A DNA stretch of 64,000 nt from Azomonas macrocytogenes (GTDB taxonomy: Bacteria > Pseudomonadota > Gammaproteobacteria > Pseudomonadales > Pseudomonadaceae): positions 186,001 to 250,000 of the forward strand of contig NZ_JACHXI010000003.1 of NCBI RefSeq assembly GCF_014191985.1. The letters run 5' to 3'. The position numbers and the translations under genes are program-made. How positions within the stretch are numbered: position 1 is the first letter of the stretch; each line of letters begins with the position of its first letter. Shown here in pieces: positions 12,094 through 37,459 of the stretch. Under the pieces are notes generated by a model. That model had not been told where the DNA came from. It made no database searches and was given only the letters and a program-made list of their open reading frames with translations.

Positions 12094-12792
12094 ATGTCTG
12101 GACTCGACAAGCGAGTAAGCACCTACGAACAAGCCCTGGAAGGTCTCGGCGACGGCATGACAGTCCTCTCCGGTGGTTTCGGCCTGTGCGGCATTCCGGA
12201 AAATCTGATCGCCGAAATCCGCCGGCGGCAGGTCAGGGACCTCACCGTGGTTTCGAACAACTGTGGCATCGACGGCTTCGGCCTGGGGGTGCTGCTCGAA
12301 GATCGGCAGATCCGCAAGATGATCGCCTCCTATGTCGGCGAGAACGCGCTGTTCGAACGCCAATTGCTCAATGGCGAACTGGAGGTCGAACTGACCCCGC
12401 AAGGCACCCTGGCCGAAAGGCTGCGGGCTGGCGGCGCAGGTATCCCGGCTTTCTATACGGCGACCGGTTATGGCACGCCGGTCGCCGAAGGCAAGGAAGT
12501 GCGCGATTTCAACGGCAAGCACTACATCCTGGAGCGGGCGCTCATCGGCGACTTCGCTATCGTCAAAGGCTGGAAGGCGGACTATTTCGGCAATGTCATC
12601 TACCGGCATACCGCGCAGAACTTCAATCCGCTCGTCGCCATGGCCGGCAGGATCACCGTGGTCGAGGTGGAAGAGATTGTCGCGCCGGGCGAATTGGAGC
12701 CCAGCCAGATCCATACGCCCGGTATTTATGTGAACCGCCTCATTCTCGGGCATTTCGAGAAACGTATCGAAAAACGCACCTTGCGCGCCTGA
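12094..12792 (+). CDS. dhcA: 3-oxoacid (dehydrocarnitine/acetoacetate) CoA-transferase, subunit A
   Basis: The alpha subunit of a family I CoA-transferase, 232 residues, with the CoA-binding signature [14 protein letters not shown] (residues 26-40) and [13 protein letters not shown]. With subunit B it moves CoA between a short acyl-CoA and a 3-oxoacid such as acetoacetate or 3-dehydrocarnitine. The neighbourhood (LysR, A, B, thiolase, 3-hydroxybutyrate dehydrogenase, GntP and AtoE permeases) matches the P. aeruginosa dhcAB-atoB-bdhA locus as I recall it, hence the symbol; atoD/scoA would be an equally defensible name. ATG at 12094 follows AAGAGG. Confidence 0.9.
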
Positions 12793-12832
12793 TCCCGGAC
12801 GCTGACCAGACAGACAATAGAGGCTTCGTGCA

Positions 12833-13489
12833 ATGACCCTTTCCCGTGAACAAATGGCTCAGCGCGTGGCGCGCGAGCTGCAGGACGGTTACTACGTCAA
12901 TCTGGGCATCGGTATTCCTACCCTGGTGGCCAACTATGTGCCCGAGGGCATCGATGTGATGCTGCAGTCGGAAAACGGCCTGCTCGGCATGGGTGAGTTT
13001 CCCGCCGAGGCGGAACTGGACGCCGACATGATCAACGCTGGCAAGCAGACCGTGACCGCCCGCCCCGGCGCATCGATCTTCGACTCAGCCGAATCTTTCG
13101 CCATGATCCGCGGCGGCCATGTCGACCTGACGGTGCTCGGCGCCTTCGAGGTCGATGTGGAGGGCAACATCGCGTCCTGGATGATCCCCGGCAAGCTGAT
13201 CAAGGGGATGGGCGGGGCGATGGATCTGGTCGCCGGTGCCGAGAACATCATCGTCATCATGACCCACGCTGCCAAGGACGGGGCTTCCAAACTCTTGCCG
13301 CGTTGCTCGCTGCCGCTGACCGGCGCCGGTTGCATCCGGCGGGTACTGACCGACCTGGCCTATCTGGAAATCGAGAACGGCGCTTTCGTGCTCAAGGAGC
13401 GCGCGCCAGGAGTGAGTGTGGAGGAGATCGTCGCCAAGACCGCCGGCAAGTTGATCGTGCCCGAGCATGTGCCGGAAATGACCTTCTAA
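12833..13489 (+). CDS. dhcB: 3-oxoacid (dehydrocarnitine/acetoacetate) CoA-transferase, subunit B
   Basis: The beta subunit, 218 residues, carries the catalytic glutamate in the family motif [10 protein letters not shown] (about residues 43-52), which forms the glutamyl-CoA intermediate. Other landmarks are [13 protein letters not shown] and [15 protein letters not shown]. It lies 40 bases after subunit A and 29 bases before the thiolase gene, consistent with one transcript. Substrate preference between acetoacetate and dehydrocarnitine cannot be read from sequence alone. Confidence 0.92.
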
Positions 13490-13518
13490 CCGTTTACCCG
13501 CTGATTGGGAGAATCTTC

Positions 13519-14700
13519 ATGCAAGACGTTGTCATTGTCGCTGCCACACGCACTGCCATCGGCAGTTTCCAGGGTGCCTTGGCCCAGATTCCGGCAAGCG
13601 AGCTGGGTGCCACCGTCATCCGGGCGCTGCTCGAACGTACAGGGCTGGCTCCGGCCGAAGTGGATGAAGTCATCCTGGGCCAGGTCCTGACCGCCGGTGC
13701 GGGGCAGAATCCGGCCCGGCAGGCCGCGATAAAGGCCGGCTTGCCGGAAACCGTACCGGCCATGACCATCAACAAGGTCTGCGGCTCGGGACTTAAAGCC
13801 CTGCATCTGGCGACCCAGGCGATCCGTTGCGGCGATGCCGACGCCATCATCGCCGGTGGGCAGGAAAGCATGAGCCTGGCGCCCTATGTTTTGCCAGGGG
13901 CGCGGACCGGCCTGCGCCTGGGCCATGCCAGTCTGGTCGATACGCTGATCAGCGATGGGCTGTGGGATGCCTTCAACGATTATCACATGGGCATCACGGC
14001 GGAAAACCTGGCGGAGAAATACGCCATCGCCCGCGATACCCAGGACGCTTTCGCCGCGGCTTCCCAACAGAAGGCGCTGGCCGCCATCGAAGCTGGACGT
14101 TTCCGGGATGAGATCACACCGGTGAACGTTGTGCAGCGCAAGGGTGGAGCGCTGTTTTTCGATACCGATGAGCAGCCGCGTACCGGCACCACGATTGACG
14201 CCCTGGCCAAGTTGCGACCGGCATTCAAGAAGGACGGCTCGGTCACGGCCGGCAACGCCTCGACCCTCAACGACGGAGCCGCTGCCGTGCTGCTGGTGAG
14301 TGCTGCCAAGGCACAACAACTGAACTTGCCGGTGCTGGCCACGATCAAGGCCTATGCCAGCGCCGCCGTCGATCCGGCGATCATGGGGATTGGTCCGGTG
14401 GCAGCCACGCGTCGCTGTCTGGAGAAAGCCGACTGGACGCTCGACCAGCTCGATTTGATCGAAGCCAACGAAGCCTTCGCTGCCCAGGCGCTGTCGGTGG
14501 GTAAGGAACTGGGCTGGAATCCGGAGATCGTCAACGTCAATGGCGGCGCGATTGCCCTGGGTCACCCCATTGGTGCTTCCGGTTGCCGCGTGCTGGTCAC
14601 GCTGCTGCACGAAATGATCCGCCGTGGGTCGCATAAGGGGCTGGCTACCTTGTGCATCGGTGGCGGGCAGGGTGTGGCCTTGGCGCTGGAGCGCGGCTGA
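13519..14700 (+). CDS. atoB: acetyl-CoA acetyltransferase (thiolase)
   Basis: A 393-residue degradative/biosynthetic thiolase that splits acetoacetyl-CoA into two acetyl-CoA, completing breakdown of the product of the CoA-transferase. It has the nucleophilic Cys in [11 protein letters not shown], the NEAFAAQ segment, the active His in [14 protein letters not shown] and the second catalytic Cys in [10 protein letters not shown] start at ATG 13519, seven bases after GGGAGA; the frame is open further upstream but overlaps dhcB. It sits third in the cluster. Confidence 0.95.
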
Positions 14701-14746
14701 TGAACCGCCTGTAAGCGCTAATTCAAATAAAAACAGGAGCTTATAT

Positions 14747-15670
14747 ATGACATCAGCTTCTCTGGTTATCCTTGGTGCCGGTCTCATGGGCGTCGGTATC
14801 GCCACCCATTTCGCCCGGCATGGGCATAGTGTGCTGCTGTACGACCCGTCGCCGGAGCGACTCGCTGAAGTTGCGGACGAAGCGCAGGCCATCCTGGCAG
14901 AGCTGGCCGATGCCGATCAGTTCGACCACGTGCAGACGAACGAAGTCCTTGCACGACTCAGGACTACGCAGCAATTGACGGATGTCGCCCGTGCCCGATT
15001 GCTGATCGAGGCGATTCCCGAGCGGCTCGAACTTAAGCGGGCACTCTATGCCGAGTTGGAGCGAAGCATTGCTGCCGATGCCATCATCGCCAGTAATACC
15101 AGCGGTCTGCTACCGGATGCGCTGGCCGAGGGAATGCAGCACCCCGAGCGATTGCTGATCACGCATTTCTGGAACCCGCCACACCTGATTCCGCTAGTGG
15201 AAATCGTCCCGGGCAGCCGCACGCGTGCCGAGCATCTGGAGCAGGTCCGGGCGCTGCTGGCAGGGCTGGAACTGGAAGCCGTGGTGCTGGACAAGGCCTG
15301 CCCCGGGTTCATTGGCAATCGCCTGCAGTTTGCCGTGTTGCGCGAGGCGCTGCATCTCGTGCAGAGCGGCGTTGCCAGTGCGGCGACCGTCGACCGAGTG
15401 ATGCGTGCCTCGCTCGGGCGACGCTATGCCATGGTCGGCCCGCTGGAGGCTGCCGATATGGGGGGGCTGGATACCTTCCTGGATATTTCCCGGCATCTCA
15501 TGTCGAGCCTGGCCAAGGACGAGGCGGTACTGGCCTTGATCGAAGAAAAGGTCACGCAGGGGCAGACCGGTCTGCGTAGCGGCGAGGGGTTCTATCGCTG
15601 GGACACGGCCCGTTGCGAGCGAATTCTCAAGCGCCGCGCCCATCAACTGCGTCATGCACTGAAACCCTGA
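14747..15670 (+). CDS. 3-hydroxyacyl-CoA dehydrogenase family protein
   Basis: A 307-residue single-module NAD-dependent 3-hydroxyacyl dehydrogenase. The NAD-binding GAGLMGVGIA lies at residues 11-20; IPERLELK, SNTSGLLP and HFWNPPHLIPLVEIVPG are family motifs, and a C-terminal helical domain follows GFIGNRL. The same superfamily includes L-carnitine dehydrogenase (CdhA) and 3-hydroxybutyryl-CoA dehydrogenase, so in this cluster it may oxidise a 3-hydroxyacid or its CoA ester feeding the CoA-transferase and thiolase. ATG at 14747 follows CAGGAGC. As I recall, the P. aeruginosa dhc cluster has no such gene at this point, making it an insertion relative to that layout. Confidence 0.82.
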   Translation: MTSASLVILGAGLMGVGIATHFARHGHSVLLYDPSPERLAEVADEAQAILAELADADQFDHVQTNEVLARLRTTQQLTDVARARLLIEAIPERLELKRALYAELERSIAADAIIASNTSGLLPDALAEGMQHPERLLITHFWNPPHLIPLVEIVPGSRTRAEHLEQVRALLAGLELEAVVLDKACPGFIGNRLQFAVLREALHLVQSGVASAATVDRVMRASLGRRYAMVGPLEAADMGGLDTFLDISRHLMSSLAKDEAVLALIEEKVTQGQTGLRSGEGFYRWDTARCERILKRRAHQLRHALKP

Positions 15671-15834
15671 CAAACAGAGCGCTCGCAGGGTAGATGGACG
15701 AAGCCAGCCACCCTGTTGAACGTATCGATAGACCGCAACGGGGTGGCAATTGATGACACGCCCTAATGCCAACGCAACACCGCTGCTCGAAAACAACAAA
15801 ATGTCGGTCGACCCGCCGGCGATAAGGAGTAGTC

Positions 15835-17226
15835 ATGAGTGTTCTGATCGCCCTGGCGGCGCTGGGTTTGCTGATGTTCGCCGCCTATCGCGGCTACAGC
15901 GTCATTCTCTTCGCCCCCATCGCTGCCTTGGGCGCTGTACTGCTTACCGATCCCAGCGCCGTGGCGCCGGCTTTTACCGGCGTGTTCATGGACAAGATGG
16001 TCGGCTTCATCAAGCTCTATTTTCCCGTTTTTCTGCTCGGTGCGGTGTTCGGCAAGCTGATCGAATTGTCTGGGTTCTCGCGTTCCATTGTCGTCGCGGC
16101 GATCGACGTGCTGGGCCGGCGGCGGGCGATTCCGGTGATCGTCGCGGTTTGCGCCCTGCTGACTTACGGCGGAGTTTCCCTGTTCGTGGTGGTGTTCGCG
16201 GTGTATCCCTTCGCGGCCGAGATGTTTCGCCAGAGTGGCATCCCCAAGCGCCTGATTCCGGCCACGGTGGCGCTGGGGGCATTTTCCTTCACCATGGATG
16301 CCTTGCCCGGCACGCCGCAGATTCAGAACATCATTCCCACCAGCTTCTTCGGCACCACCGCCTGGGCCGCGCCCTGGCTGGGGTTGAGCGGCTCGGTGTT
16401 CGTCGTTTGCGTCGGCCTGCTGTATCTGGAGCGGCAGCGGCGCAAGGCTTTGGAGAAGCGTGAAGGCTACGGCAGCGAACTGCGCAACGAGCCGGAAACG
16501 CCGGCAGATATTCCGCTACCGCACCCTTTGATCGCACTGCTGCCGCTGGTACTGGTGGGCCTGCTCAATCTGGCGTTCACTCACTGGATTCCCCTGTGGT
16601 ATGGCAAGACCCACAGCCTCATGTTGCCAGGACTGGCGCAGCCGGTGCAGACCGAAATCGGCAAGATCACCGCCATCTGGGCGGTAGAAGCGGCCCTCTT
16701 GACCGGTATTCTGGTCGTCGGCCTGTTTGGTTTCCGGGTCATTCGCGGGCGGCTCGCCGAAGGCAGCCGAACCGCGGTAGGCGGAGCCATGCTGGCCTCG
16801 ATGAATACCGCATCCGAGTATGGCTTCGGGGCGGTGATCGCTGCCTTGCCGGGTTTTCTCTTGTTCTCCCAGGCCCTGCAGGCAATCCCCAACCCACTAC
16901 TCAACGAAGCCATCAGCGTCACCCTGCTGGCCGGGATCACCGGTTCGGCTTCGGGGGGGATGAGCATCGCCCTGGCGGCCATGGCCGATACCTTCATCGC
17001 TGCCGCGAACCAGGCGCAGATTCCTCTGGAAGTGCTGCACCGCGTCGCCGCCATGGCCAGCGGCGGGATGGACACGCTGCCACACAACGGTGCGGTGATC
17101 ACCCTGCTGGCAGTCACCGGACTGACCCACCGCGAAGCCTACGGCGGCATCTTCGCCATCACTCTGATCAAGACCACGGCGGTGTTGTTCGTCATCGGCG
17201 TGTTCTACCTGACCGGCATCGTCTGA
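15835..17226 (+). CDS. GntP-family permease
   Basis: A 463-residue inner-membrane protein with about 12 hydrophobic segments, for example residues 5-35, 60-85 and 95-125, and the GntP-type motifs DALPGTPQIQN and SGSASGGMSIAL-like (GSASGGMSIALA). GntP transporters import gluconate and other small hydroxy acids by proton symport; next to bdhA and a CoA-transferase the likely cargo is 3-hydroxybutyrate or a related hydroxy acid. Position next to bdhA matches the P. aeruginosa locus (recalled as PA2004). It is separated from the dehydrogenase gene by 164 bases, so a second promoter is possible. Confidence 0.85.
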   Translation: MSVLIALAALGLLMFAAYRGYSVILFAPIAALGAVLLTDPSAVAPAFTGVFMDKMVGFIKLYFPVFLLGAVFGKLIELSGFSRSIVVAAIDVLGRRRAIPVIVAVCALLTYGGVSLFVVVFAVYPFAAEMFRQSGIPKRLIPATVALGAFSFTMDALPGTPQIQNIIPTSFFGTTAWAAPWLGLSGSVFVVCVGLLYLERQRRKALEKREGYGSELRNEPETPADIPLPHPLIALLPLVLVGLLNLAFTHWIPLWYGKTHSLMLPGLAQPVQTEIGKITAIWAVEAALLTGILVVGLFGFRVIRGRLAEGSRTAVGGAMLASMNTASEYGFGAVIAALPGFLLFSQALQAIPNPLLNEAISVTLLAGITGSASGGMSIALAAMADTFIAAANQAQIPLEVLHRVAAMASGGMDTLPHNGAVITLLAVTGLTHREAYGGIFAITLIKTTAVLFVIGVFYLTGIV

Positions 17227-17240
17227 ACGAGGAAAACATC

Positions 17241-18011
17241 ATGAATCTGCAAGGCAAGACGGCACTCGTCACCGGCTCCACCAGCGGCATCGGCCTGGGT
17301 ATTGCTGAACGCCTGGCCGAGGCCGGCGCGCGCCTGATTCTCAACGGCTTCGGTGACGTCGATGCGGCCAAAGACAGCGTTGCCCGCCATGGCCAGACGC
17401 CGGGTTATCACGCCGCCGATCTCAGTGATCCGGCACAAATCGACGAGCTGATGCGTTACGCCGAACAGGATTTCGGTGGCGTCGATATTCTGGTCAACAA
17501 TGCTGGCATCCAGTACGTGTCGCCGGTGGAGGACTTCCCCGCGGCCAAGTGGGATGCGGTGATCGCCATCAACCTGTCCGCGGTGTTCCACACCAGCCGC
17601 CTGGCGCTGCCCGGCATGCGCGAGCGCGGCTGGGGACGGATCGTCAATGTGGCATCGGTACATGGGCTGGTTGCCTCGAAAGAAAAGGCGGCCTACGTCG
17701 CGGCCAAGCATGGGGTGATCGGCCTGACCAAGGTCATCGCCCTGGAAACCGCTTGCACCAGGATCACGTGCAATGCCATCTGTCCCGGCTGGGTGCTGAC
17801 GCCTTTGGTGCAGCAGCAGATCGACAAACGCGCCGCAGTCAGTGGTGATCTCCAGCAGGCGCGCGATGAATTGCTGGCGGAGAAGCAGCCATCGCTGGAG
17901 TTTGTGACGCCTGGGCAACTCGGTGAACTCACCCTGTTTCTGTGCAGCGATGCGGCCGAGCAGGTGCGCGGTGCCGCCTGGAACATGGATGGCGGCTGGC
18001 TGGCGCAATAA
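17241..18011 (+). CDS. bdhA: 3-hydroxybutyrate dehydrogenase
   Basis: A 256-residue short-chain dehydrogenase that oxidises D-3-hydroxybutyrate to acetoacetate with NAD. Motifs: TGSTSGIGLGIA at residues 11-22, LVNNAGIQYVSPVEDFP characteristic of this subgroup, catalytic Ser in NVASVHGLV, and YVAAKHG with the YxxxK pair. The ATG at 17241 lies 14 bases after the permease stop and follows GAGGAAA. It links the permeases to the CoA-transferase and thiolase in one catabolic route. Confidence 0.94.
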   Translation: MNLQGKTALVTGSTSGIGLGIAERLAEAGARLILNGFGDVDAAKDSVARHGQTPGYHAADLSDPAQIDELMRYAEQDFGGVDILVNNAGIQYVSPVEDFPAAKWDAVIAINLSAVFHTSRLALPGMRERGWGRIVNVASVHGLVASKEKAAYVAAKHGVIGLTKVIALETACTRITCNAICPGWVLTPLVQQQIDKRAAVSGDLQQARDELLAEKQPSLEFVTPGQLGELTLFLCSDAAEQVRGAAWNMDGGWLAQ

Positions 18012-18037
18012 TCAGAACAATAACTAGGAAAATACCG

Positions 18038-19465
18038 ATGACTGCCGCTATCGAAGACAGCCGCTACGCGCGCTTTGCGCTGCGTTGCTCGAACTGGGCC
18101 GAACGCTGGTTTCCCGATTCCTGGGTCTTTGCCGTACTGGCCGTGGTCATCGTCGCGCTGGCGACGCTGGCCATGGGGGCAAAACCCGCCGAGACCGCCA
18201 AGGCCTTCGGAGATGGCTTCTGGAGCCTGATTCCCTTCACCATGCAGATGGCCTTCGTGGTCATCGGCGGTTATGTCGTCGCCAGCTCACCGCCGGCAAT
18301 CCGCCTGATTGAGCTGCTTGCGGCAGTCCCGAAGAACGGTCGTTCGGCCGTCTGCTGGGTCGCCTTGATATCGATGCTGGCTTCCTTACTGAACTGGGGG
18401 TTGAGTCTGGTGTTCGGTGGGCTGCTGGTCCGGGCGCTGGCCCGCCGTGACGAGCTGCGCATGGATTACCGCGCCGCCGGTGCGGCCGCCTATCTCGGGC
18501 TGGGAGCGGTATGGGCGCTCGGGCTATCGTCTTCTGCCGCACAGTTGCAGGCGAATCCGGGTAGTCTGCCGCCGTCGATCCTGGCGATCACCGGGGTGAT
18601 TCCTTTCACCCAGACCATCTTTCTCTGGCAATCCGGCGTGCTGCTGCTGGCACTTACGCTGGTGTCGCTGATGGTCGCCTATGCCACTGCGCCGGGGGCC
18701 GCCAGTGCGCGCGATGCCAAGGCCTGCGGCATCGATCCAGGTTTCGTGCCGCCCCCCATGGCGCAACGCACCCGGCCCGGCGAGTGGCTGGAATACAGCC
18801 CGCTGCTGATCATTCTGCTGGTGCTGCTTGCCGTGGGCTGGCTGGTTCAGGAGTTCGCCAGCAAGCCGGCCATCGAGGCGATTTCCGGGCTCAATACCTA
18901 TAACCTGCTGTTTTTGACGCTCGGGGCGCTGCTGCACTGGCGCCCGCGCAGTTTCCTCGATGCTGTGTCCCGCGCGGTGCCGACCACGGCCGGGGTGCTG
19001 ATCCAGTTCCCCTTGTACGGCTCCATCGCCGCGATCATGACCAAGGTCGGCGGCGGTGACGGCCAGACTGTGGCTCATCACATTTCCACCTTTTTTGTGC
19101 AAATCGTCGCGCACGATACCTTTGCACTGCTGATCGGCGTCTATTCGGCCATTCTCGGCTTCTTCATTCCCTCCGGCGGCGGCAAGTGGATCATCGAGGC
19201 ACCCTATGTGATGCAGGTGGCCAACGAACTGAACTTCCATCTGGGCTGGGCCGTGCAGATCTACAATGCTGCCGAGGCACTGCCCAATCTGATCAACCCG
19301 TTTTACATGCTGCCGCTACTGGGCGTGCTGGGGCTCAAGGCGCGCGATTTGATCGGCTTTTCCTTCGTCCAGTTGCTGGTGCACATACCGTTGGTGCTGG
19401 TATTGCTCTGGGGGTTGGGGACGACGCTGGAGTACTTGCCGCCGGTCATGCCGGCAGGCGGATAA
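18038..19465 (+). CDS. atoE: AtoE-type short-chain fatty acid transporter
   Basis: A 475-residue integral membrane protein with about 12 hydrophobic segments and the AtoE-family features RWFPDSWVFA near the N-terminus and FIPSGGGKWIIEAPYV in the middle. AtoE proteins take up short-chain fatty acids such as acetoacetate and butyrate. It starts 26 bases after bdhA and ends the cluster; a putative small RNA and terminator lie about 150-260 bases downstream. Two unrelated permeases in one cluster suggest separate uptake of hydroxy acid and keto acid. Confidence 0.88.
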   Translation: MTAAIEDSRYARFALRCSNWAERWFPDSWVFAVLAVVIVALATLAMGAKPAETAKAFGDGFWSLIPFTMQMAFVVIGGYVVASSPPAIRLIELLAAVPKNGRSAVCWVALISMLASLLNWGLSLVFGGLLVRALARRDELRMDYRAAGAAAYLGLGAVWALGLSSSAAQLQANPGSLPPSILAITGVIPFTQTIFLWQSGVLLLALTLVSLMVAYATAPGAASARDAKACGIDPGFVPPPMAQRTRPGEWLEYSPLLIILLVLLAVGWLVQEFASKPAIEAISGLNTYNLLFLTLGALLHWRPRSFLDAVSRAVPTTAGVLIQFPLYGSIAAIMTKVGGGDGQTVAHHISTFFVQIVAHDTFALLIGVYSAILGFFIPSGGGKWIIEAPYVMQVANELNFHLGWAVQIYNAAEALPNLINPFYMLPLLGVLGLKARDLIGFSFVQLLVHIPLVLVLLWGLGTTLEYLPPVMPAGG

Positions 19466-19554
19466 AGGCAGAGAATGCCACTGTGCTCGACACGCTCGGA
19501 GCGGCTGAAATATTTGGGTACGACAGCGCAGAGAAACCGACGAATAGCAAAATG

Positions 19555-19610
19555 CTTACAAGAAGTCGCGGAGTTTTACTCTATCGTTTTGCCAACTGGA
19601 TCACTAATCT
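19555..19610 (+). promoter_or_regulatory. candidate promoter of the Rsm-like sRNA, with a GacA half-site
   Basis: CTTACA at 19555-19560 equals one half of the GacA activating sequence TGTAAG-N6-CTTACA; the left half is not conserved here (AATAGC). A -10-like TAATCT lies at 19605-19610, which would put the start near 19616-19617 and the half-site at about -60, the distance seen for known rsm genes. No good -35 is present, as expected for an activator-dependent promoter. Confidence 0.35.
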
Positions 19611-19615
19611 ACCTA

Positions 19616-19730
19616 CATGGACTGCAGCACAGGATGTGCTCAGGGATGTCAAGGACGAACAACCGGGCCAGGATGGCAGCTTGACAGGATGTCGAGTAAG
19701 GTTAGAAAAACCCGCTTAGGCGGGTTTTTC
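19616..19730 (+). ncRNA. candidate RsmA/CsrA-sequestering small RNA (RsmX/Y/Z type)
   Basis: A non-coding stretch of about 115 bases contains six GGA motifs (at 19619, 19632, 19644, 19653, 19671, 19687) and ends in an intrinsic terminator. Three GGAs lie in identical AGGAT loops on perfect or near-perfect stems: AGCAC/GTGCT at 19626-19640, GCC/GGC at 19667-19677, and TTGAC/GTCGA at 19681-19695. Repeated GGA in hairpin loops is the hallmark of RNAs that titrate RsmA/CsrA in the Gac/Rsm pathway. Length matches RsmX/RsmY (about 110-125 nt). It sits between atoE and the convergent kup gene, not at the loci I know for rsmY (near dnr) or rsmZ (near rpoS). The 5' end is inferred; expression is not shown. 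Confidence 0.65.
19706..19729 (+). terminator. intrinsic terminator ending the Rsm-like RNA
   Basis: AAAAA-CCCGC, a TTAG tetraloop and GCGGG-TTTTT form a perfect symmetric hairpin with T-tract at 19725-19729. Being symmetric, it could also act for the convergent kup transcript, which ends at 19832. Confidence 0.9.
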
Positions 19731-19831
19731 GCTTTCCAAGGCATGCACGAGAGCGTGACCCGTTCGAAAAGCGATCCAGCATGGTAGCTGAAAAATGCGC
19801 TTTGTTCGCTTTTCAGGCTGTTGTGCGGCAT

Positions 19832-21748
19832 TCAGATCTGCACCCGTGTCCCCAATTCGATCACCGCATTGTCTGGCAGCCGGAAGTACTCGACCACCCG
19901 GCCAGCATTGCGAGTCATGATGGCGAACAGCTGCTCGCGCCAGGTGACCATGCCACTGCCAGCCCTGGGCATGATGTTTTCGCGGCTGAGAAAGTAGGTG
20001 GTTTCGAATGCCGGAATGCGCAGCCCCTGGGATTCCGCCAGCATCAGGGCTTTGGGCACGTCGGGAATGTTCATATAGCCGAAGTGCAGTGTGACGCGCC
20101 AGAAGCCGCGTCCCAGCGGCTCGATTTCCACGCGCTTGTCCATGCCGAGCCAGGGCACTTCGTGGAACACCACGGTCAGAATGATGTTGTGCTTGTGCAA
20201 CACTTCGTTGTGCTTGAGGTTGTGCAGCAGCGCCTGCGGCACCGTGTCCGGGTTGGCCACGGCGTACACGGCCGTGCGCTGGCCACGATGCAGGGTAATC
20301 TGCGGGTCGAGGTTGTCGATGAAGGTCTGCAGATTCGTGCCATCCTTGCGGATGCTGTCCGCCACCAGTTGGCGACCATGCGACCAGGTGCTCATGAGCA
20401 GGAACAGCAGTGCCGCCAACGCCAGCGGAAACCAGCCGCCGGCAAAGAACTTGATGGCGCAGGAAGCGACTAGGATGACATCGATGAGCAGAAACAGTGC
20501 AGTGGCGGCGATGGCGATGGATTTTGGTACGCCCCAGCCCGCACGCACCACAAAGTAAGTGAGCAGAGTAGTGATCAGCATGGTCAGCGTCACGGCGATG
20601 CCGTAGGCGCCGGCCAGCGCGGACGAGCTCTGGAAAATCAGCACCGCAATGATCACCCCGGCCAGCAGCGCCCAGTTGACAGCTGGCATGTAGATCTGTC
20701 CAGCCTCCTTGACCGAGGTATAACGAACCTCCATGCGTGGCAGGAAGCCGAGCTGGATGGCTTGCTTGGTCATCGAATAGGCACCGGAAATCACCGCCTG
20801 GGACGCGATGATCGCCGCCAGGGTGGCCAGCACCAGAGCCGGCGGTAGCCAGCTTTCCGGGAAAAGGTGATAGAAGGGGTTTTCGATCGCGGCCGGGGTA
20901 CTCATCAGCAGTGCGCCCTGGCCCATGTAGTTGAGTGCCAGGCTGGGCAATACCAGGCCGGCCCAGGCCAGCTGGATCGGTTTGCGACCGAAGTGGCCCA
21001 TGTCTGCGTATAGCGCTTCGGCGCCGGTCAGGGCCAGTACGATGGCACCTACGGCAGCGAACAGCTGCCAGCCTTGCGTGCTTAGAAATACCCAGGCGTG
21101 CAGCGGATTGAGCGCCGCGAGAATGGCCGGCTGCCGAGCGATATGGCTGATCCCCGTGATCCCGAGGGTGACGAACCAGAGCGCGATGATCGGTCCGAAC
21201 CATTTGCCAACGAAACCGGTGCCCAGGCGCTGAATGACAAACAGTCCGATCAGGATGACCAGCGTGAAGGGGATCACGTAGGGTTCGAGCGTCGGAGCGA
21301 GCAGTTCCAGCCCTTCCGTCGCACCGAGCACTGAAATCGCTGGAGTAATGACACTGTCGCCATAGAACAGCGTAGCGCCGAATACCCCCAGCAACAGCAG
21401 GGCGTGACGCAGCGCCGGGCGTGCCTTGACGGCCTTGGCCGCCAGGGTGGTGAGTGCCAGCCCGCCGCCTTCGCCATCGTTGTCGGCACGTAGGATCAGG
21501 ATGACGTACTTGAGCGTGACGACCAGTATCAGTGCCCAGAAGATCACCGAGACAGCGCCGATCAGGTTGGCGTGATTCAGTGCCAGACCGGTGGCCGGGG
21601 AGAAGATTTCTTTTACCGTATAGAGCGGGCTGGTGCCGATGTCACCGTAGACCACGCCGATGGCGCCCAGGGTAAGTGCGGCAAGGTTGCGATTGTGCCC
21701 GGAATGAGCCGGGCGGGAGGATTCGAGATCCGTGACGGATTCGCTCAT
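19832..21748 (-). CDS. kup: Kup-type potassium uptake permease
   Basis: A 638-residue potassium/proton symporter of the KUP family. It begins with a polar N-terminal tail and then the signature [20 protein letters not shown] (about residues 31-50), has about 12 membrane segments through residue 460 and a hydrophilic C-terminal domain of about 175 residues with HEVPWLGMD and FFLSRE-like motifs ([10 protein letters not shown]). It lies 78 bases downstream of, and on the same strand as, a KdpDE-like two-component system, which may therefore control potassium uptake through Kup. Confidence 0.96.
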
Positions 21749-37280: not shown

Positions 37281-37459
37281 GAGCTCCCCGGCATGCCGCT
37301 GCTGGCGTAGGCCCTTGAACCCGAAAGTTCAAGGTGGTGACTGCCGGAAACCATAAGGCTTTCCGTCAGGCGGACATGCACACCGGTCTCACGCACAGTC
37401 CCCGTTTTTTTGCGTATCGGGAGAGGGACAGCACCGGCTGGCGTACATGCCAGGGAGTC
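37281..37459 (-). ncRNA. ssrS: 6S RNA
   Basis: The gap between zapA and ygfA on the minus strand holds a 6S RNA. The 3' half reads like the conserved core: CACCTTGAAC, a short loop, GGTTCAAGGG (around 37310-37334), followed by GCGGCATGCCGGGGAG; its end (CATGCCGGGGAG) pairs with the 5' segment CTCCCTGGCATG (around 37447-37458) to close the long stem. Length of about 180 matches. 6S RNA binds sigma-70 RNA polymerase as an open-promoter mimic. The ends are estimated from pairing and from the -10 element. Confidence 0.88.

Follow-up and report, generated by a model that had tools for sequence, protein, structure and literature searches.

A putative second, lineage-specific rsmX small RNA gene between atoE and kup in Azomonas macrocytogenes

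The atoE-kup interval and its RNA element

The window analyzed here is a stretch of 64,000 nucleotides (64 kb) from the genome of Azomonas macrocytogenes, and unprefixed positions refer to it. An atoE-like transporter gene lies at 18032-19465 on the plus strand (TIGR00366 match below the cut-off) and, convergent with it, a kup-like potassium transporter gene lies at 19832-21748 on the minus strand (NCBIfam Kup matches below the cut-offs). The atoE-like gene is the last gene upstream of the interval and closes a cluster (12094-19465) whose genes seem to serve the breakdown of acetoacetate and 3-hydroxybutyrate; an RNA element lies at the 3' end of this cluster. The 3-hydroxybutyrate dehydrogenase of this cluster scored over its curated cut-off, and the other genes, named from their translations, presumably belong to the same breakdown route. 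On the far side of the interval, the best of the 80 matches kept for the Kup protein are two beta-proteobacterial MAG sequences with 73-74% identity, while the identity to other Kup proteins of its own family is 50-54%, except for 77% in the congener G002; it is possible, judging from these sequences, that Kup entered this genus by gene transfer.

A search of the window with all Rfam models at gathering thresholds returned two matches, i.e., rsmX (RF02144) at 19617-19730 on the plus strand and 6S RNA at 37281-37459 on the minus strand (104.8 bits). The rsmX match spans model positions 1-114, end to end, which gives a gene of about 114 nt, and it scores 63.1 bits against a gathering score of 56. 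Given its E-value of 2.9e-9 (whole window, 4227 families), this match is not due to chance. An earlier sequence-only reading had proposed an Rsm-type small RNA at 19611-19730 and suggested covariance models as a check, and the rsmX model upheld the proposal; the 3' end stands as proposed, whereas the start does not, as the match begins at 19617. Among 14 named control genomes, none matched rsmX at E 0.001 and one (E. coli) did so at E 0.01, below the cut-off.

All six GGA motifs that had been counted in about 115 bases were located, starting at 19619, 19632, 19644, 19653, 19671, and 19687. Likewise, the three identical AGGAT loops described on perfect or near-perfect stems are seen, with starts at 19631, 19670, and 19686; read from the sequence, their stems are 4, 3, and 6 pairs long, and one pair of the third stem is G-U. 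Hairpin 1 (GCAC-AGGAT-GTGC, 19627-19639) is found in the sequence and the model alignment and corresponds to covarying helix 1. Hairpin 2 is weak in the window RNA, where the alignment shows two of its four pairs forming, the inner ones only. A closing helix, AACC/GGTT (19661-19703), which appears in the fold and as helix 3 of the alignment, encloses hairpin 3 (GCC-AGGAT-GGC, 19667-19677) and hairpin 4 (CTTGAC-AGGAT-GTCGAG, 19680-19696); both are found in the sequence, the model alignment, and the fold, and hairpin 4 is also covarying helix 5. The strong terminator expected at the 3' end is present, with two arms (19705-19715 and 19720-19730) that pair perfectly over 11 bases and a T run, and it forms helix 6, with 100% of cells paired. 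This terminator faces kup on the opposite strand and may stop kup transcription too. The stretch as a whole has a fold z-score of -4.4, and none of 200 shuffles folded as well.

Chance, covariation, and the promoter

The case for this gene is carried by the model match, covariation, and the promoter. We rejected the number of GGA hairpins as proof of significance because it is weak: three GGA hairpins with stems of at least 3 pairs occurred within one RNA length in 5 of 60 dinucleotide-shuffled windows, searched on one strand. With stems of at least 4 pairs, the stretch has one GGA hairpin only, an ordinary number given that the shuffles gave 44 windows with one, 15 with two, and 1 with three. 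At least six GGA motifs per 114 bases are found at 0.7% of the plus-strand positions of the window. The real minus strand, too, has three short hairpins with GGA loops close together (1209-1280), with no Rfam match over threshold, and the shuffles suggest that this grouping is due to chance.

Covariation was counted in an alignment of the window RNA and 25 family RNAs, 22 of them above the rsmX cut-off and three below it (the copies on contig C17 and in G002 described below, and g2_004). Relative to the 27-gene set used for the promoter, this 26-row alignment omits g16_018 and g6_047b and adds the weak match g2_004 (40.6 bits). On a 30-pair structure written from a row other than the window RNA, 93.9% of the cells were paired and 15 of the 30 pairs had changed on both sides, values that were each reached in 0 of 500 shuffles. 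Indeed, no shuffle was as high on four of the five measures used, and 13 of 500 were on the fifth. When the partners were shifted by 1 to 3 columns, the pairing fell to 26-43%. In the closing helix (columns 47-94), the window RNA has an A-U pair where 22 of the 26 RNAs have G-C. Helix 4 (hairpin 3) had no both-side change among the 26 RNAs, and covariation is silent on this helix.

These results leave a next to negligible probability that the element arose by chance, as a terminator with a spacer rich in GGA, or that it belongs to a small coding gene, the ORF at 19475-19684. The triplets of GGA hairpins in shuffled DNA are what such a reading can draw on; the model E-value, the covariation, and the upstream activating sequence (UAS) described next argue against it, and the ORF has no NCBIfam family match.

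A GacA-type UAS of the rsmX form, AATAGCAAAATGCTTACA, lies at 19543-19560 on the plus strand and shares 15 of its 18 bases with the UAS published for Pseudomonas brassicacearum, whose rsmX genes carry a sequence recognized by GacA according to passages of PMC7911923. The CTTACA half-site, previously placed about 60 bases 5' of the start, is indeed there (19555-19560, i.e., -62 to -57 from 19617) and turns out to be part of this 18-base site. We compared its spacing in 27 rsmX genes, namely the window copy, the C17 and G002 copies (both below the cut-off), 7 of 30 fetched loci, and those 17 of 22 over-cut-off matches for which a locus was available; CTTACA lies at -59 to -64 in 25 of them and at -62 in the window copy. 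A first UAS comparison had taken in six more genes (rsmY and five weak matches), of which g8_010 and g9_083 were dropped before the identity and tree comparison and all six before the spacing count. Although a plain sigma-70 scan listed no promoter at the RNA start, comparison with the other rsmX genes predicts a TAATCT element at the -10 position (19605-19610, plus strand), and 19 of the 27 genes, the window copy among them, have TANNCT in the 20 bases that precede the RNA.

A UAS pattern that was drawn after this site was seen, with the site itself included, had its sole window match (at most 2 mismatches) at 19543-19560, with 0.04 expected and matches in 4 of 100 shuffles. Across the whole genome, a looser pattern matched three places (the window site, the rsmY site, and C7:52062-52079) and its reversed form one. 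We rejected C7:52062-52079 as an rsm site because the 300 bases after it hold two GGA motifs and the other strand carries a long reading frame, which we take to be hemN-like.

The promoter also bears on the idea that the element is part of the 3' UTR of the atoE operon and ends at a shared terminator, with RsmA regulating that mRNA and no free small RNA being made. Read-through into the RNA is possible, as no plus-strand terminator-like site was listed before it in 19300-19900; that scan, however, did not list the terminator of the RNA itself either, a probable effect of the T run being within the stem, and its silence is weak evidence. Against a 3' UTR, the RNA has an activating site and a promoter element to itself, spaced as in other rsmX genes, the fold of the preceding stretch (19440-19616) is no better than that of shuffled sequence (z -0.13), and BLAST found the RNA at 0 of 29 other atoE loci. 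We therefore consider this idea very unlikely.

Family assignment, relatives, and the other Rsm genes of the genome

Taken together with the family and genome comparisons below, the sequence evidence makes it very likely that 19617-19730 is a second, lineage-specific rsmX gene, whose RNA would serve as a Gac-controlled RsmA sponge. The likelihoods that we give to the alternatives overlap with one another and with that of this reading. One alternative, which we hold to be unlikely, is that the gene is an rsmY paralogue and not rsmX, although it would work in the same way. Its 5' end, AUGGAC, is like the RsmY consensus, and at a relaxed threshold the RsmY model (RF00195) gave 54.2 bits on the same stretch. 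However, this score is just under the RsmY gathering score of 57, whereas the rsmX score is over 56; the identity of the RNA to the genome's own rsmY is 58%, compared with 66-81% to 26 other rsmX RNAs; and the UAS is of the rsmX form. What decides between the X and the Y name is a difference of 9 bits, the cut-offs, and the form of the promoter. The RsmZ model (RF00166), run on the genome at E 0.001, gave three other places and none at 19617-19730.

The genome (4.09 Mb, 70 contigs, 99.99% complete) indeed holds several related genes, in line with the suggestion of the sequence-only reading that the RNA is an additional family member. An own-genome search placed rsmY at C4:255532 (78.7 bits) and another rsmX at C17:65889-65997 on the minus strand, beside hrpA, with a score below the cut-off (43.2 bits). 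The three RsmZ-model places are C38:134-273, C3:281949-282080, and C30:13672-13807, two of them over the threshold of 44 and one at 42.9 bits, and all three have a TGTAAG-N6-CTTACA-like site at -77 or -80 that agrees at 11 of 12 bases. By eye, the C30 copy is similar to the C3 copy, whose T-ending terminator hairpin it lacks. In the UAS of the C17 rsmX, CTTACA reads CCGACA, while CTTACA is kept in the G002 orthologue.

Since extra copies occur in this genome, and decay can be seen in the lost CTTACA of the other rsmX and, by eye, in the rsmZ-like copy without a T-ending terminator hairpin, the window copy could itself be a silent extra gene, relocated or in decay, with rsmY and rsmZ doing the work. 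Yet it has a UAS, a -10 element, the three GGA hairpins, and a terminator, and it outscores the other rsmX (63.1 versus 43.2 bits), which makes silence quite unlikely. Rather, with its intact UAS and higher score, the window copy may be the working rsmX of the species.

With respect to the bacterial family, rsmX matched at E <= 0.001 in 300 of 398 genomes and over the cut-off in 199 of 398; the weaker matches include noise, and scores of about 28-40 bits recur several times in many genomes. The match in G003 (31.7 bits, one GGA) was rejected as noise. The single match in G002, at 38.2 bits, also falls in the noise range and was kept for its GacA site and its hrpA neighbor, which it adjoins as the C17 copy does. 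By eye, no such RNA was visible in the 1.5 kb after kup in G002 (70% complete), and the congener G001 (99% complete) had no rsmX match. Elsewhere in the family, six rsmX matches in G090 (genus g6) are over the cut-off, and a seventh also exceeds 51 bits.

The place of the window copy, which had been thought possibly lineage-specific, was not seen at any of the 48 other rsmX loci compared (a set without g6_047b), as none of them matched the proteins in its 1.5-kb flanks. A shared-flank group of 8 rsmX loci was rejected as synteny because it reflects in part a common domain, presumably chemoreceptor-like. Genes like atoE were found at E 1e-60 in 186 of 398 genomes, and among the best 30 such loci, kup or the RNA adjoined atoE only in the window's own and in 0 of the 29 others (two of these end within the flank, and the RNA was sought by BLAST).

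The window RNA shares 81%, 79%, and 78% identity with rsmX RNAs of other genera in the family and 66% with the C17 copy. As it is closer to other genera than to the C17 copy, it is no recent local duplicate of the latter, unless that copy diverged fast. The window copy may thus be old or may have come from outside, to judge from these identities; a tree of RNA plus promoter placed it with weak support and did not tell duplication from transfer.

Proposed action and comparison with known systems

According to the available text of PMC7366521 and PMC2375449, GacA switches on RNAs of this kind, and these take RsmA-type proteins off mRNAs. The partners that we looked for in this mechanism are encoded, as the genome has genes for both GacA and RsmA. 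More specifically, a GacA-family regulator (NF007018, over the cut-off) is encoded upstream of uvrC, and two CsrA-domain proteins score over the Pfam cut-off, one RsmA-like and over its cut-off, the other below the NCBIfam CsrA cut-offs. The second protein has what we take to be the inserted arrangement of RsmN, and we call it RsmN-like. On this basis, phosphorylated GacA would bind 19543-19560 and switch on transcription at about 19617, and the terminator (19705-19730) would end the resulting RNA of ~114 nt. RsmA, and the RsmN-like protein as well, are expected to bind to the AGGAT loops and the unpaired GGA motifs of this RNA, which would draw them away from target mRNAs and relieve repression. 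That the RNA is expressed, depends on GacA, binds these proteins, and affects targets is predicted here from the sequence and the partner genes.

The upstream cluster allows a further, rather unlikely extension, in which operon read-through would let ketone-body and polyhydroxybutyrate breakdown release an RsmA-binding RNA, and the RNA would have two inputs, i.e., GacA and the use of carbon stores. In this reading, the damaged GacA site of the hrpA-linked rsmX would point to a move of the Gac input to the window copy.

Because the rsmX family is described and, in passages of PMC7911923, variation in its copy number is already published, the window rsmX is an ordinary kind of gene. A literature search with most subscription papers outside its coverage gave no report of rsmX between atoE and kup. 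The window copy adds a lineage-specific member to a family of sponge RNAs that varies in place and number. In addition, as one rsmX of this genome keeps the GacA half-site and the other has lost it, the two form a natural pair for asking how the Gac signal is shared or divided among copies.

Among known systems, the RsmX family (RF02144), with the rsmX of P. protegens, rsmX1-5 of P. syringae, and rsmX-1 and rsmX-2 of P. brassicacearum, is like the window copy in length, GGA hairpins, closing helix, terminator, and the 18-base GacA site at about -74 to -57. The window copy differs in its place between atoE and kup and in that the second copy is on another contig and not in tandem. RsmY (RF00195) is of the same Rfam clan and shares the mechanism, and this genome has a separate rsmY at 78.7 bits. 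Azotobacter vinelandii, of the same bacterial family, offers another case of amplified, Gac-controlled sponge RNAs, with seven RsmZ copies, or eight in one passage, in the available text of PMC11330419; these differ from the window copy in matching the RsmZ model and in being longer. In our own searches, four genomes of a genus that we infer to be Azotobacter (g17; G019, G034, G044, and G055) had 8, 10, 13, and 8 RsmZ matches over the cut-off, respectively, and no rsmX match. Finally, RsmV and RsmW of P. aeruginosa are also RsmA-binding RNAs beyond rsmY and rsmZ, but they are reported as Gac-independent in the available text of PMC7366521, whereas the window copy has a GacA-type site.
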